DNA from: a virus | IMG/VR virus record: IMGVR_UViG_3300050821_008073 | Coordinates: 1 to 24,281 of that record | Length of the DNA: 24,281 nucleotides | Strand: one strand, 5' to 3' | Part shown: piece after piece, positions 2,290 to 8,195 of the stretch | Layout of the letters: every line of letters starts with the position of its first letter | Position numbering within the stretch: position 1 is the stretch's first letter | Notes under the pieces: generated by a model | What the model was told of the DNA's origin: nothing | The model's input: only the letters and a program-made list of their open reading frames with translations | Database searches by the model: none | Position numbers and translations under genes: made by a program

Positions 2290-2505
2290 ATGGCCGAAAC
2301 CGTCCGCCTCAACCTCGTCGTCTCGTCGCAGCTCCAGGGCGAGTTGGAGCGCATCGCCAAGGAAAGCGGCTCGACGATGAGCAACGTATTCCGGGTTGCC
2401 TTCGCGATCTATCTCCGATGCCACAAGGCGAAGCAAGACGGCTTGCACATCGGCATCGTGGCCGATCCGTCGAAACTCGACACCGAGCTGGTGGGCCTGC
2501 TGTGA
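2290..2505 (+). CDS. Ribbon-helix-helix (CopG/Arc-like) DNA-binding protein
   Basis: This is a 71-residue protein. Residues about 4-11 (TVRLNLVV) form a predicted strand, followed by a helix (SQLQGELERIAKESG) and a second helix (TMSNVFRVAFAIYLRCHKA). That is the strand-helix-helix order of ribbon-helix-helix repressors such as CopG and Arc, which bind DNA as dimers through the strand. The ATG at 2290 has AGGAGA about six bases upstream, and an in-frame start at 2239 is less likely. It is the first gene of the rightward early operon and faces the divergent region with repeated TTTTGTGT, so autoregulation is plausible. The next gene starts inside its stop codon (GTGA). Confidence 0.8.
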   Translation: MAETVRLNLVVSSQLQGELERIAKESGSTMSNVFRVAFAIYLRCHKAKQDGLHIGIVADPSKLDTELVGLL

Positions 2506-3782: not shown

Positions 3783-4031
3783 ATGGCGAACGGTTGGCTG
3801 CCATTGCCGGCGGACGGCGACCAGGCCGCGGCGCCGTGGGACGGCAAGCCTGTCCTGGTTCTGACGAACCACACGTGGACCGGCCGCGTTCATCGAGTCA
3901 TCTGGACGGACCGGGTTCACGGCGCAGGCATCTTCGGGTGGGCTGTGGAGGACTGCAAATTCGGTCCCTATCCCTTGCGCGGATATACGGTCGTCACGCA
4001 CTGGCAGCCGCTGCCGCCCGCTGAGCCCTGA
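3783..4031 (+). CDS. DUF551-like small phage protein
   Basis: This is an 82-residue protein starting MANGWLPLPADGD, two bases after the preceding stop. The ending GYTVVTHWQPLPPAEP matches the THW-x-PLP signature that closes DUF551 proteins, which are common in phage early regions and have no known function. Tryptophan-rich strands (VLVLTNHTWTGRVHRVIWTD) fill the middle. Its TGA overlaps the ATG of the RusA gene (TGATG), so the two are probably translated together. Confidence 0.75.
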   Translation: MANGWLPLPADGDQAAAPWDGKPVLVLTNHTWTGRVHRVIWTDRVHGAGIFGWAVEDCKFGPYPLRGYTVVTHWQPLPPAEP

Positions 4032-4480
4032 TGACCGAGGGCGAGGCCTTCCGCTGCACCTTCACTGTCCCGGGCTCGCCGCGGGGCAAAGGACGTCCTC
4101 GCACAGCGGTCATCGGCGGCCACGCGCGCATCTTCACCGACAGCAAGACGCGGGCCGAGGAAGGGGCGATCCGGGTGATCGCTGCCGCGGCGATGCGTGG
4201 TGCGCCGCCGTACGACGGGCCGGTTGTGCTCCGAATGTGCGCCTATCGGCAAATCCCCGCCTCGTGGTCGGCCAAGAAGCGTGCTGCTGCCGAAGCCGGC
4301 GACATCGTGCCGACCTCCCGGCCGGATTTCGACAACTACGGGAAAATCGCCTGCGATAGCCTCAATGGGATCGTGCTGCGCGATGACAGCCAAATCGTCA
4401 GTGCTGTGATCCACAAGCGTTTTTCCGAACGACCTCGGCTTGTTCTTGACCTGCGGAGCGCCGAGCAACAGGCTGGCTGA
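4031..4480 (+). CDS. rusA: RusA-family Holliday junction resolvase
   Basis: This is a 149-residue endonuclease of the RusA family, close to the usual length of 120-150. The family cuts four-way DNA junctions as a dimer during phage recombination and replication. Residues 16-26 (SPRGKGRPRTA) match the conserved N-terminal basic segment. The acidic catalytic cluster is visible: D99 and D101 in RPDFDNYGK, D109 before SLNG, and D118/D119 in LRDDSQI, followed by a C-terminal strand (RPRLVLDL). It lies between the DUF551-like gene, which it overlaps, and gcrA, within the replication operon. The family call is firm, but cleavage preference cannot be read from the sequence. Confidence 0.93.
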   Translation: MTEGEAFRCTFTVPGSPRGKGRPRTAVIGGHARIFTDSKTRAEEGAIRVIAAAAMRGAPPYDGPVVLRMCAYRQIPASWSAKKRAAAEAGDIVPTSRPDFDNYGKIACDSLNGIVLRDDSQIVSAVIHKRFSERPRLVLDLRSAEQQAG

Positions 4481-4499: not shown

Positions 4500-5072
4500 A
4501 TGCCAATCGGAGTCTACGACCGGACGACCTACAACCGGACACCACAGGACACCGATTGGCCGAGCGATCGGATCATTCGGTTGCGTGCGCTTTGGGACGA
4601 GGGCCATTCGACCGCTGAGATCGGTCGGCGTCTCGGGGTCAGCAAGAACTCGGTGGTGTCGAAATCTCACCGGCTTGACCTGCCGGGACGGCCGTCACCG
4701 ATCCGGCGCCGCGAGGATGGCGCTCCCGCACCGCAGCGCCTTACCACTCCCAAGCGCGAAGGCCCGACCCTTCCGCCGATGACCGCCGCGCCGATCGTCC
4801 TGCGGGAGCCGTTACCGCCGCTGCGCGCCGAGTCGCCAAAGCCCAAGCCGGTCGCGCTGTTCGGTCGCGTGGCTACGTGCGTTTTTCCGATGGGCGAGCC
4901 GAAAACCCGGGATTTTCACTACTGCGACGCGCCGACACTGCCCGGCGGCGTCTACTGCGAGGACCACGCGAAGCGCTGCTACGTGAAGACGCATCGGCCG
5001 GACCCCGCCGCCCCGATCCCGCACGAAACCCCGAGCCGCTTCAGCTTCCAGCGTCGCGCCGGCGGCGAGTGA
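4500..5072 (+). CDS. gcrA: GcrA-family cell-cycle regulator
   Basis: This is a 190-residue protein. Residues 20-63 (DWPSDRIIRLRALWDEGHST... to SHRLDLPGRP) match the N-terminal helix-turn-helix of GcrA, normally W(T)-ER-..LW-EG-S...IA..LG-..-SRNAVIGK-HRLGL. The C-terminal part has the family's Cys/His block: C127-VFP, DFHYC142, YC153 and H156. In Caulobacter, GcrA works with sigma-70 RNA polymerase at promoters methylated at GANTC by CcrM. A phage copy could redirect host promoters or read phage methylation. GGGGGACGAA precedes the ATG. Its stop overlaps the ATG of the next gene, a DNA methyltransferase. A long basic and proline-rich linker separates the two domains. Confidence 0.93.
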   Translation: MPIGVYDRTTYNRTPQDTDWPSDRIIRLRALWDEGHSTAEIGRRLGVSKNSVVSKSHRLDLPGRPSPIRRREDGAPAPQRLTTPKREGPTLPPMTAAPIVLREPLPPLRAESPKPKPVALFGRVATCVFPMGEPKTRDFHYCDAPTLPGGVYCEDHAKRCYVKTHRPDPAAPIPHETPSRFSFQRRAGGE

Positions 5073-5803
5073 TGAGGATCGAGCGCATCGGGAGCGCTAC
5101 CCTCTACCTTGCCGACTGCCGGGACGTGCTGCCGACGCTCTCGGATGTGGATGCGGTGGTGACTGATCCGCCGTATGGGATCGCCTACGTCAAGGGGAAG
5201 GGCGGCAAAGGTTGCCACTCGTCCCGGCGCAACGGTGGTGAGGCGAAGCGCAACATCGAGGCTATAGCTGGCGACGGTGAGCCGTTTGACCCTCAATACT
5301 GGCTGCGCTTCCCTGAGTTGATTATGTGGGGAGCCAATCATTTTTCCTCCCGTATGCCGGATGCTGGTCGGTGGTTGGCGTGGAATAAACTGGGCGGCAT
5401 GGAGCCGTGGGACAGTTTTTCTGATGTCGAGTTCGCATGGTGCAGTTCGCCGGGTGCCGACCGCATTTTCTCACACCTGTGGAAGGGCCTTTGCCAGAAG
5501 GGTGCTGGCACGCTGCGCGAACATCCCACGCAGAAGCCCGTCGAATTGCTGGAATGGTGCCTGTCATTCGTCGGCAACGATCTGATCCTCGACCCCTTCC
5601 TGGGCAGCGGGACCACCGGCGTAGCCTGCGCACGCCTAGGCCGCCGATTCATCGGCATTGAGATCGAGCCCCGCTATTTCGACATCGCCTGCCGCCGCAT
5701 TGAGCAGGCCCAGCGACAACGGGACCTGTTCATACAGGCGCCCATCGCCGAGGACCCAGCGGACCAGCGCATCGCCGATTTGTTCGCAGAGCCGGGAAAG
5801 TGA
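5072..5803 (+). CDS. DNA amino-methyltransferase (N6-adenine/N4-cytosine, beta-type order)
   Basis: This is a 243-residue protein. The catalytic motif TDPPYG (DPPY at 32-35) comes first. The S-adenosylmethionine-binding motif DPFLGSGTTG (174-183) comes near the C-terminus, after HPTQKP (151-156) and before GRRFIGIEIEP. This order defines the beta group of N4/N6 methyltransferases. CcrM belongs to the same group but is about 350 residues with an extra C-terminal domain that is absent here, so this looks like a compact phage enzyme. The target sequence cannot be read. The ATG overlaps the gcrA stop, and its own TGA overlaps the helicase GTG, placing methylation between a methylation-responsive regulator and replication. 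No cognate restriction endonuclease is adjacent. Confidence 0.93.
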   Translation: MRIERIGSATLYLADCRDVLPTLSDVDAVVTDPPYGIAYVKGKGGKGCHSSRRNGGEAKRNIEAIAGDGEPFDPQYWLRFPELIMWGANHFSSRMPDAGRWLAWNKLGGMEPWDSFSDVEFAWCSSPGADRIFSHLWKGLCQKGAGTLREHPTQKPVELLEWCLSFVGNDLILDPFLGSGTTGVACARLGRRFIGIEIEPRYFDIACRRIEQAQRQRDLFIQAPIAEDPADQRIADLFAEPGK

Positions 5804-7287
5804 ACGAGGCAGGCCTGTTCGGCACGTCGCTGCGCGCGCCGCCGAGCAACGTCCTGGCCGAGCAAAGCCTCCTGGGCACGCTCCTGGCCTCAAACCGGAC
5901 GCTCGACAAAGTGCTCGACCTGCTGGAGCCTGAGTCGTTTGCTGACCCGGTAAATTCGAGGCTGTACGAGATCATCCGTGACCGCGTGACGACCGGGCTG
6001 CTGGCCGATGCCGTGACGCTGCGGTCGGTGCTGGACGGCGCGGGCATACTCGACGAGGTCGGCGGCACGGCCTACCTGGCGCAGCTCGTGAGCGCGATGG
6101 TGGCGCCGCTGATGGCCAGCGACTACGCGGCGACCATCCGTAATGCGTGGCTTCGGCGGCAGTTACTCGAGATCAGCCAGGACATGATGGCGCTGGCGTT
6201 CGGTGCGGATCCGTCGCTGGATGCCGCTGCACAGATCGCGTCAGCTGAACGCGCCCTGGCCGAGTTGGGCACCGGCGGCCGCAAGGGCGCGGTCCTGTCG
6301 TCGCTCGGAGCCGCTGTGCACGCCACACTGGCGCGGGCTACGGCAGCCGCTGCGACCGGTCAGTCGCCGGCGCTGATGACCGGCCTGGCCGCGGTGGATC
6401 AGGCCTTGGGCGGGTTCTGGCCAGGCGAGATGACGATCCTGGCCGGCATTCCGGGTTCCGGGAAAAGTGCCCTTGCGGCAGGGATCGCCACCTCGATCGC
6501 CCAGTCCGGTAAGCCGGTCCTGTTCCTCAGCCGCGAGATGTCGTCTGAGCAGCTTGCGGCCCGAATCGCCGGTCAGCGCGCCGGGATCAGCGCCAGGTCG
6601 GTCATGCGCGGGGATTTCGACATGCTCGCTGCGGATCGCTTGGTGCTGGCCGAGAAGGAAATGCACGACTGGCCGTTGGACATCTACGACTGCCGTCGGA
6701 CGCCGCTGCGTGTCCTGGGAGCCAAGACGCGCATGCTCCTGCAGCGCAAGCCGGCCGCGCTGGTGATCCTCGACCACCTGCTGGTCGCCAACCCCGAGGA
6801 ACAGCAGCAGGACAAGCGCCGGTCAGCCGGTCACGACGCGAGCAGCGTATCCGCCGCGGCCTATGCCCAGCGCGAGATCGCCGGCGACTTCAACATCCCG
6901 TTTTTGGTCCTGACCCAGATGTCGCGGCCGCCCTCCGACAACCGCGCGCGCCGTCCAACTATGCAGTCGCTGAAGTACGGTGGCGAGGAAGCGGCCGACT
7001 CGGTGATGTTCGTGCACCGGCCGATCCTCTTTATGGACCACGACCCGCCGCCGCGTGGGAAGCGCACGACCGAGTCGGACTGGGCGCTCGAGCGCGCTGA
7101 GCACTACGCCAAGCTGGACGCCGCGCGCGAACTCGCTGAGCTGATCGTGGCGAAGAACCGCATGGACGAGGGCGCCAAGGTGGTGAAGATGCGGTACGTC
7201 GGCGCGCTCACGCAATTTGTCGAATGGTCGGACGACGCTCCGGCCCCGGTTTCAGTGCCGCCTGGCGAACTGTGGAATGGAGAGTGA
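5800..7287 (+). CDS. dnaB: DnaB-type replicative DNA helicase
   Basis: This is a 495-residue helicase that would unwind DNA at the phage fork. Residues ~13-130 match the helical DnaB N-terminal domain (NVLAEQSLLGTLL, PESFADPVNSRLYEII). The RecA-like motor has Walker A GIPGSGKS (216-223), the SREMS segment (244-248, replacing the usual SLEMS), Walker B LVILDHL (321-327) and LTQMSR (371-376). SLKYGGEEAADSVMFVHRP near residue 390 matches the late motif where most DnaB proteins read IEQDADVV. It starts at a GTG that overlaps the methyltransferase stop (GTGA). The length suits a phage DnaB. A DnaT-like protein encoded at 8957 could help to load it. Confidence 0.95.
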   Translation: MNEAGLFGTSLRAPPSNVLAEQSLLGTLLASNRTLDKVLDLLEPESFADPVNSRLYEIIRDRVTTGLLADAVTLRSVLDGAGILDEVGGTAYLAQLVSAMVAPLMASDYAATIRNAWLRRQLLEISQDMMALAFGADPSLDAAAQIASAERALAELGTGGRKGAVLSSLGAAVHATLARATAAAATGQSPALMTGLAAVDQALGGFWPGEMTILAGIPGSGKSALAAGIATSIAQSGKPVLFLSREMSSEQLAARIAGQRAGISARSVMRGDFDMLAADRLVLAEKEMHDWPLDIYDCRRTPLRVLGAKTRMLLQRKPAALVILDHLLVANPEEQQQDKRRSAGHDASSVSAAAYAQREIAGDFNIPFLVLTQMSRPPSDNRARRPTMQSLKYGGEEAADSVMFVHRPILFMDHDPPPRGKRTTESDWALERAEHYAKLDAARELAELIVAKNRMDEGAKVVKMRYVGALTQFVEWSDDAPAPVSVPPGELWNGE

Positions 7288-7288
7288 C

Positions 7289-7465
7289 ATGGCAGATCCA
7301 GCAGACTTCGCGAACGTGCCGCCCAGCCAGCCGAATGCGTACGGTCCAGGCCAGCCAGTGTCAGCCGAGGAGTTCGCCCGTTGGGTGCGACTTGGTGGCT
7401 GGGCGCCGAAAGGGTGGGAGTCGCAGAGCGGCCCACCGAGGCCGCTGAAGCCTGCCGGTGACTGA
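7289..7465 (+). CDS. Small hypothetical phage protein
   Basis: This is a 58-residue, proline-rich protein (MADPADFANVPPSQPNAYGP...). The ATG follows the helicase stop as TGACATG, the same junction seen at 1523 and 1890. The central EEFARWVRLGGWAPKGWES could form a short helix. The next gene begins at a GTG eight bases before its stop. No function can be assigned, and its reality rests on its tight placement in the operon. Confidence 0.65.
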   Translation: MADPADFANVPPSQPNAYGPGQPVSAEEFARWVRLGGWAPKGWESQSGPPRPLKPAGD

Positions 7466-8195
7466 CCGTCCGCTCGCCATCGACCTCTACTGCGGGCTCG
7501 GCGGCTGGGCCTCGGGCCTGCTCGCCGAGGGCTACGATGTGATCGGCTTCGACATCGAGCGCCACGTCTACGGCGAGCACCGATACCCCGCCACGCTGGT
7601 GTTACAGGACGTGCTGACGCTGCACGGTCGCCAGTTCAAGGACGCGGCGCTGATCGTCGCCTCGCCGCCATGCCAGGCCTATAGCTACCGCGCGATGCCG
7701 TGGAAGCGGGCCAAGGCGCTGCCGCCGCCCGACAATACGCTGTTCGAGGCGTGCTTTCGCATCCAGCGCGAGGCTTGCGAGGCGGCTGGGCGCCGCATTC
7801 CGTTGGTGGTCGAAAACGTGCGCGGCGCTCAGCCTTGGGTGGGTCGGTCGCGCTGGAACTTTGGTAGTTTCCACCTTTGGGGCGATGTGCCGGCGCTCAT
7901 GCCGCCGAGAGGAACCCTTCCCGCGAAGCGCGCAATGGATGACCTCAAGTACGGACAGCGGAAACTGGTCCATGCGCACCTGCCGGTAGGGAACGGGCCG
8001 CTTGGACGCAACGACGGAACCGAGGGCACCAAGCAGCCCGGCCTCCCTGGCGTGCTCTGGTTCGACCAAGGTGCGGCCTCTTTCGCGTCCAAATCTCCCG
8101 CGCGCAAAGCCGCCAGCGCCATGATCGCCAAGATACCGCTCCCGCTCGCCCGGTGGATCGGCCGCGCTTGGTATCCGCTGAGGGACGCCGCATGA
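7458..8195 (+). CDS. C5-cytosine DNA methyltransferase
   Basis: This is a 245-residue protein with the C5-methyltransferase motifs in order: motif I DLYCGLGG (9-16, SAM binding), motif IV SPPCQ (69-73, Cys72 being the expected nucleophile) and motif VI VVENV (117-121). It transfers methyl groups to cytosine C5. It is short for the family, which often exceeds 300 residues, so the target-recognition region after residue 125 is compact and specificity cannot be inferred. The GTG start at 7458 overlaps the preceding gene by eight bases and the next ATG overlaps its stop. This is the second DNA methyltransferase of the operon and again has no restriction partner, which is typical of phage anti-restriction or regulatory use. 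Confidence 0.9.
   Translation: MTDRPLAIDLYCGLGGWASGLLAEGYDVIGFDIERHVYGEHRYPATLVLQDVLTLHGRQFKDAALIVASPPCQAYSYRAMPWKRAKALPPPDNTLFEACFRIQREACEAAGRRIPLVVENVRGAQPWVGRSRWNFGSFHLWGDVPALMPPRGTLPAKRAMDDLKYGQRKLVHAHLPVGNGPLGRNDGTEGTKQPGLPGVLWFDQGAASFASKSPARKAASAMIAKIPLPLARWIGRAWYPLRDAA

Follow-up and report, generated by a model that had tools for sequence, protein, structure and literature searches.

GcrA is the best-known bacterial reader of adenine methylation at promoters. Its labour is divided between a DNA-binding and a sigma-interacting domain (PMC7403470), the former solved on methylated DNA (5yiv) and the latter on domain 2 of sigma-70 (5yix), and the GcrA proteins characterised so far prefer or need m6A (PMC3667746, PMC7403470). 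Both GcrA-type cofactors and orphan methyltransferases are already known in phages. The former were reported in 2012 in phiCbK-like Caulobacter phages, where GcrA was proposed to steer host replication (PMC3556154), and other reports place it in a cyanophage (PMC9382816) and a coral-associated phage (PMC11309003), while a survey of phiLM21-like prophages includes it in five of its entries (PMC12429752). For the latter, a 2017 study of alphaproteobacterial phages described examples encoded within replication modules and noted that some copy GANTC; one, phiLM21_p027 of the phrog_799 family, has been shown to methylate GANTC (PMC5537653). We found no paper, among the openly licensed literature, that describes the neighbourhood of gcrA and a methyltransferase gene.

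Here we describe a phage locus in which these two genes overlap. The stretch of DNA analysed (‘the window’) is one entire IMG/VR record of 24,281 bases, so the phage is known here as a fragment only. With moderate confidence we favour the following account: the locus encodes a GcrA-type cofactor of sigma-70 and, separately, an exchangeable orphan methyltransferase, both within a phage replication operon. The arrangement is ordinary though informative: phages that carry gcrA beside differing methyltransferases are natural variants with which to address the co-evolution of readers and writers.

Anatomy of the locus

The locus is a piece of a tailed-phage replication/recombination operon, with these features:

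4031..4480, + strand: rusA-type Holliday junction resolvase, the upstream flank of the gcrA-methyltransferase pair (PF05866, 106.8 bits; phrog_140)
4500..5072, + strand: gcrA-family gene, 190 aa (PF07750, 83.4 bits, cut-off 26.9; PDB GcrA 7ye1, E=1.1e-16)
4545..4682, + strand: GcrA DNA-binding domain, aa 16-61, recognition helix VSKNSVVSKSHRL (model matches 5yiv)
4860..4988, + strand: GcrA sigma-interacting domain, aa 121-163, C..P..C..YC..H (model matches 5yix)
5070..5074, + strand: TGATG junction of gcrA stop and methyltransferase start, one base common
5072..5803, + strand: beta-class amino-methyltransferase, 243 aa, orphan, without RAMA domain (PF01555, 81.7 bits, cut-off 26.7; phrog_67, E=1.6e-48)
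5165..5176, + strand: methyltransferase motif IV, DPPY, aa 32-35 (invariant in 48 relatives)
5591..5620, + strand: methyltransferase motif I, AdoMet-binding, DPFLGSGTTG, aa 174-183 (conserved in 48 relatives)
5800..7287, + strand: dnaB replicative helicase, 495 aa (PF03796, DnaB_C, 136.9 bits; PF00772, 78.5 bits)
7458..8195, + strand: second DNA methyltransferase, C5-type, short, 245 aa (PF00145, 26.7 bits, cut-off 22; phrog_363)

The gcrA gene runs from an ATG at 4500 to a TGA at 5070-5072, and it shares base 5072 with the ATG of the methyltransferase; the latter ends with a TGA at 5801-5803, overlapping by four bases (GTGA) the dnaB gene, which opens with a GTG at 5800 and closes with a TGA at 7285-7287. 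Both overlaps are as a sequence-only reading of this DNA had described them, and the three gene names that it assigned hold, the Pfam scores for GcrA, N6_N4_Mtase and DnaB all lying well over their cut-offs. The C5-type gene lies 3′ of dnaB, in the same operon as gcrA. A mechanically called open reading frame at 4877-5803 offered an earlier start for the methyltransferase, which we rejected: all 48 relatives in the alignment keep the methionine encoded at 5072 (M1). At a divergent junction, window positions 2290-2505 encode a small protein that resembles the ribbon-helix-helix family only weakly (PF07878, below cut-off) and is possibly a regulator of the operon.

The two predicted proteins

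Structural models show both working halves in the predicted GcrA, namely a DNA-binding helix-turn-helix and a sigma-70-binding domain: the first model aligns with 5yiv at TM 0.89 (rmsd 0.8 over 43 residues) and the second with 5yix at TM 0.68, and in the sigma-interacting domain C127, C142, Y152, C153 and H156 are invariant among the aligned relatives. The PF07750 score, the fold of the DNA-binding domain and these conserved Cys and His residues place the protein in the GcrA family, and it scores below the cell-cycle GcrA ortholog equivalog (NCBIfam NF050816; 69.8 bits against a cut-off of 280). The closest GcrA proteins from bacterial genomes are those of Acetobacteraceae and other Rhodospirillales. 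The chromosomal GcrA of Acetobacteraceae (Siccirubricoccus, L100; Neoroseomonas, L109) is of the same WDEGHSTAEIGRR type, at ~50% identity, but carries A51 and G54 in its recognition helix; an alignment of 30 relatives shows these two residues in almost every protein, whereas the phage protein has serines there (A51S, G54S). In contrast, the GcrA of phiCbK-like phages, likewise a phage-borne PF07750 protein (PMC3556154), is 30.6% identical over 77% and belongs to giant phages of another host; moreover, in phiCbK no methyltransferase gene is annotated adjoining gcrA, unlike in the window.

In a tree (quick search only), the window GcrA falls in a phage clade with SH-aLRT 96, near the chromosomal GcrA of Acetobacteraceae. 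The hosts are probably Acetobacteraceae-like alphaproteobacteria; all five host genomes that we sampled encode GcrA together with a strongly matching PF01555 enzyme. On one Neoroseomonas alba contig (L103), which we read from its gene content as a prophage, the gene order is gcrA, small ORF, methyltransferase, dnaB. The genome of this species (G001) also holds a third GcrA-like match, at C1:915784-915927, covering the C-terminal (sigma-interacting) part only.

Turning to the methyltransferase, motif IV (DPPY) comes before motif I (DPFLGSGTTG), which is the beta-class order; within motif I, P175 and G178 are invariant and D174 and positions 177-183 are mostly at least 90% conserved in the 48 relatives. 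Together with the PF01555 match, this order upholds the earlier call of a beta-type amino-methyltransferase, which is probably adenine-specific. The folds nearest to its model are M1.HpyAVI, M.BceJIV and the core of CcrM (PDB 6pbd), with which it shares the beta-class N6/N4 methyltransferase core. However, CcrM has at least 358 aa and a RAMA domain, a domain present in all three host CcrM-type enzymes that we checked, whereas a Pfam search found no RAMA in the 243-aa window enzyme. The extra C-terminal region of CcrM is indeed missing, as the sequence-only reading had stated, and the profile comparisons it had proposed, with CcrM and with phage solo methyltransferases, are informative: PF01555 covers a common core, the CcrM equivalog cut-off is far from reached (NF050803; 64.5 against 830 bits), and the strong match is to phrog_67.

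No partner nuclease was recognised among this enzyme's neighbours, gcrA and dnaB, and we found no close relative of it that has been characterised. The phiLM21_p027-type enzymes of phrog_799 are, like it, orphan phage methyltransferases encoded in a replication module upstream of dnaB (PMC5537653), but they form an unrelated class with an NPPF motif: phrog_799 is absent from the profile matches of the window enzyme, and BLAST against phiLM21_p027 gave no similarity beyond a short motif stretch. Its phrog_67 relative in Rhizobium phage 16-3 (p097, an orphan enzyme, 42.3% identical) adjoins a phrog_799 methyltransferase (p096), with no gcrA annotated nearby; that the two enzymes lie side by side suggests that they have different targets.

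The company that gcrA keeps

A first test comes from the closest relative that we found, a record of 70,887 bases (L217/G060) in which DnaB is 91% and GcrA 82% identical to the window's. There, the TGATG junction recurs and links gcrA straight to dnaB; no PF01555 enzyme was found in the whole 70.9 kb, the C5 methyltransferase is also absent, and a different Holliday junction resolvase takes the place of rusA. The recognition helix of its GcrA is the same as in the window, including A51S and G54S, unlike in nearly all relatives. The window methyltransferase thus behaves as a presence/absence cassette between gcrA and dnaB, and the comparison of these sequences shows gcrA persisting in a close relative that has no neighbouring methyltransferase. 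The record is not methyltransferase-free, as it contains an unlinked Dam-type enzyme (PF05869, phrog_111; L241, 3817-4416 of G060). The two genes lie near each other in the Neoroseomonas alba contig, and they do not form an obligate unit. The sequence-only reading had proposed that the phage carries a methylate-and-read module; as a unit, such a module finds no support here, and the relative without the enzyme restrains what is, for the window, a tempting story.

The distribution of the methyltransferase points the same way: members of its family are common among phages that infect Mycobacterium, Gordonia, Streptococcus, Staphylococcus and Flavobacterium. GcrA is not expected in those hosts. 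Among the best 80 viral loci for this methyltransferase, just nine have a GcrA-type ORF within 3 kb, some of these below the Pfam cut-off.

Viewed from gcrA, the association is modest. A PF01555 enzyme is present in 18 of 50 gcrA-bearing viral records; its absence from the other 32 is weak evidence, since many of these records are fragments. We compared distances with random placement in the 16 of those 18 records that had been found independently of a methyltransferase search. The enzyme lies within 2.5 kb of gcrA in 9/16 (random mean 4.2, p 0.006) and within 700 bases in 5/16 (random mean 2.1, p 0.03), p values that are generous because random placement takes no account of how the module is built, and because the records are in part incomplete and interrelated. 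As a control gene we took RusA, found by Pfam search of whole records (local RusA and DnaB profiles were too insensitive): it lies 56-461 bases from gcrA in all four records that have it. Because RusA is equally close, closeness to gcrA mostly reflects membership of the replication module. The neighbouring methyltransferases fall into several size classes, with gcrA adjoining much longer PF01555 enzymes in other phages, and adjacency requires ~10 changes on the GcrA tree. We dropped the C5 methyltransferase as a neighbour of interest: it is 3.5-8 kb from gcrA in the five records measured.

In two other phages, gcrA is overlapped directly by a phrog_799 methyltransferase (L155, 8486-9010; L158, 8495-9025). 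The L158 enzyme shares 43% identity with DSS3P8 AMO44073, which is listed among putative or confirmed CcrM-like enzymes (PMC5537653); it has no direct BLAST homology to phiLM21_p027, and both nonetheless match phrog_799. The L155 and L158 enzymes have NVPW where the catalytic motif NPPW is expected. A functional link between gcrA and a methyltransferase is possible in some phages, and these two make the write-and-read idea directly testable.

GANTC sites and competing explanations

GANTC is under-represented in the window, with 59 sites where dinucleotide frequencies predict 111 (observed/expected 0.53). We considered this depletion as a sign of self-methylation and rejected it: the ratio is lower still in host contigs (0.35) and in other gcrA phages (0.34-0.37), so that the under-representation reflects the host group. 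Conservation of GANTC sites between the window and its closest relative (25/35) is within the range of other palindromes. The divergent region at 2180-2290 probably holds the operon promoter; it contains no GANTC site, and a scan with the sigma-70 consensus found no match and predicted no promoter there. The extended GcrA motif YGAKTCG occurs at 27 window sites, a bare count with no tie to promoters. There is, then, no sign that GANTC marks phage promoters, and the GANTC counts argue neither for nor against this motif as the target of the window enzyme.

We set out our favoured account, of a GcrA-type cofactor and an independent methyltransferase, in the conditional. The phage GcrA would bind host sigma-70 and raise transcription from chosen promoters, which may be those of host replication genes and/or of phage genes. 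Methyl marks, if GcrA reads them, could come from the host's own CcrM, and we think that it probably uses such host-made marks; capture of host control by the phage GcrA is plausible, as proposed for phiCbK (PMC3556154). The methyltransferase would be an orphan that can be exchanged and whose marks on phage DNA most likely serve as a defence against host restriction. Shared membership of the replication module, and not a partnership as writer and reader of one mark, would explain why the two genes are adjacent, although a link is still conceivable because methyltransferases of several size classes lie near gcrA more often than random placement gives (9/16, 5/16).

Three fuller alternatives appear unlikely. 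The best placed of them holds that the phage GcrA reads the marks of host CcrM to activate the host's replication genes while the methyltransferase copies or extends the GANTC marks of CcrM. The host-type GcrA, hosts with CcrM-type enzymes, the phiCbK precedent (PMC3556154) and the GANTC-mimicking enzymes of alphaproteobacterial phage replication modules (PMC5537653) are consistent with it; the window enzyme, however, has no RAMA and scores far below the CcrM cut-off, its relative in phage 16-3 sits beside a phrog_799 enzyme with a suggested different target, and GcrA occurs in cyanophages too (PMC9382816).

We give slightly less credence to GcrA acting on phage genes through sigma-70 with no methyl mark involved. 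Those same cyanophage genes (PMC9382816), the 32/50 gcrA-phage records that show no PF01555 enzyme (many being fragments) and the serines at 51 and 54 of the window and L217 proteins argue for this, against which stand the preference or need of characterised GcrA proteins for m6A (PMC3667746, PMC7403470) and the supply of CcrM by the hosts.

Less probable again is a write-and-read module, in which the phage GcrA would time phage genes by reading m6A that the methyltransferase places at their promoters. The overlap of the two genes, which are probably co-translated, the recurrence of gcrA near methyltransferases of varied size with those ~10 adjacency changes, and the two phages that pair gcrA with a phrog_799 enzyme, to whose family a proven GANTC methyltransferase belongs (PMC5537653), speak for it, but the closest relative retains gcrA with an identical recognition helix minus the enzyme, the RusA control is as close to gcrA, and GANTC is both absent from 2180-2290 and conserved no better than other motifs. 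Most doubtful of all is a circuit in which the methyltransferase marks new phage DNA and the neighbouring GcrA, with its altered helix, reads that mark (maybe not GANTC) and switches on phage promoters as replication proceeds.

Two further forms of GcrA-like gene were seen among the viral records: several contigs (L163-L172) encode 69-aa proteins that match the DNA-binding domain only, without the sigma-interacting half, and four records (L183, L159, G044, G049) each carry at least two GcrA-like genes.
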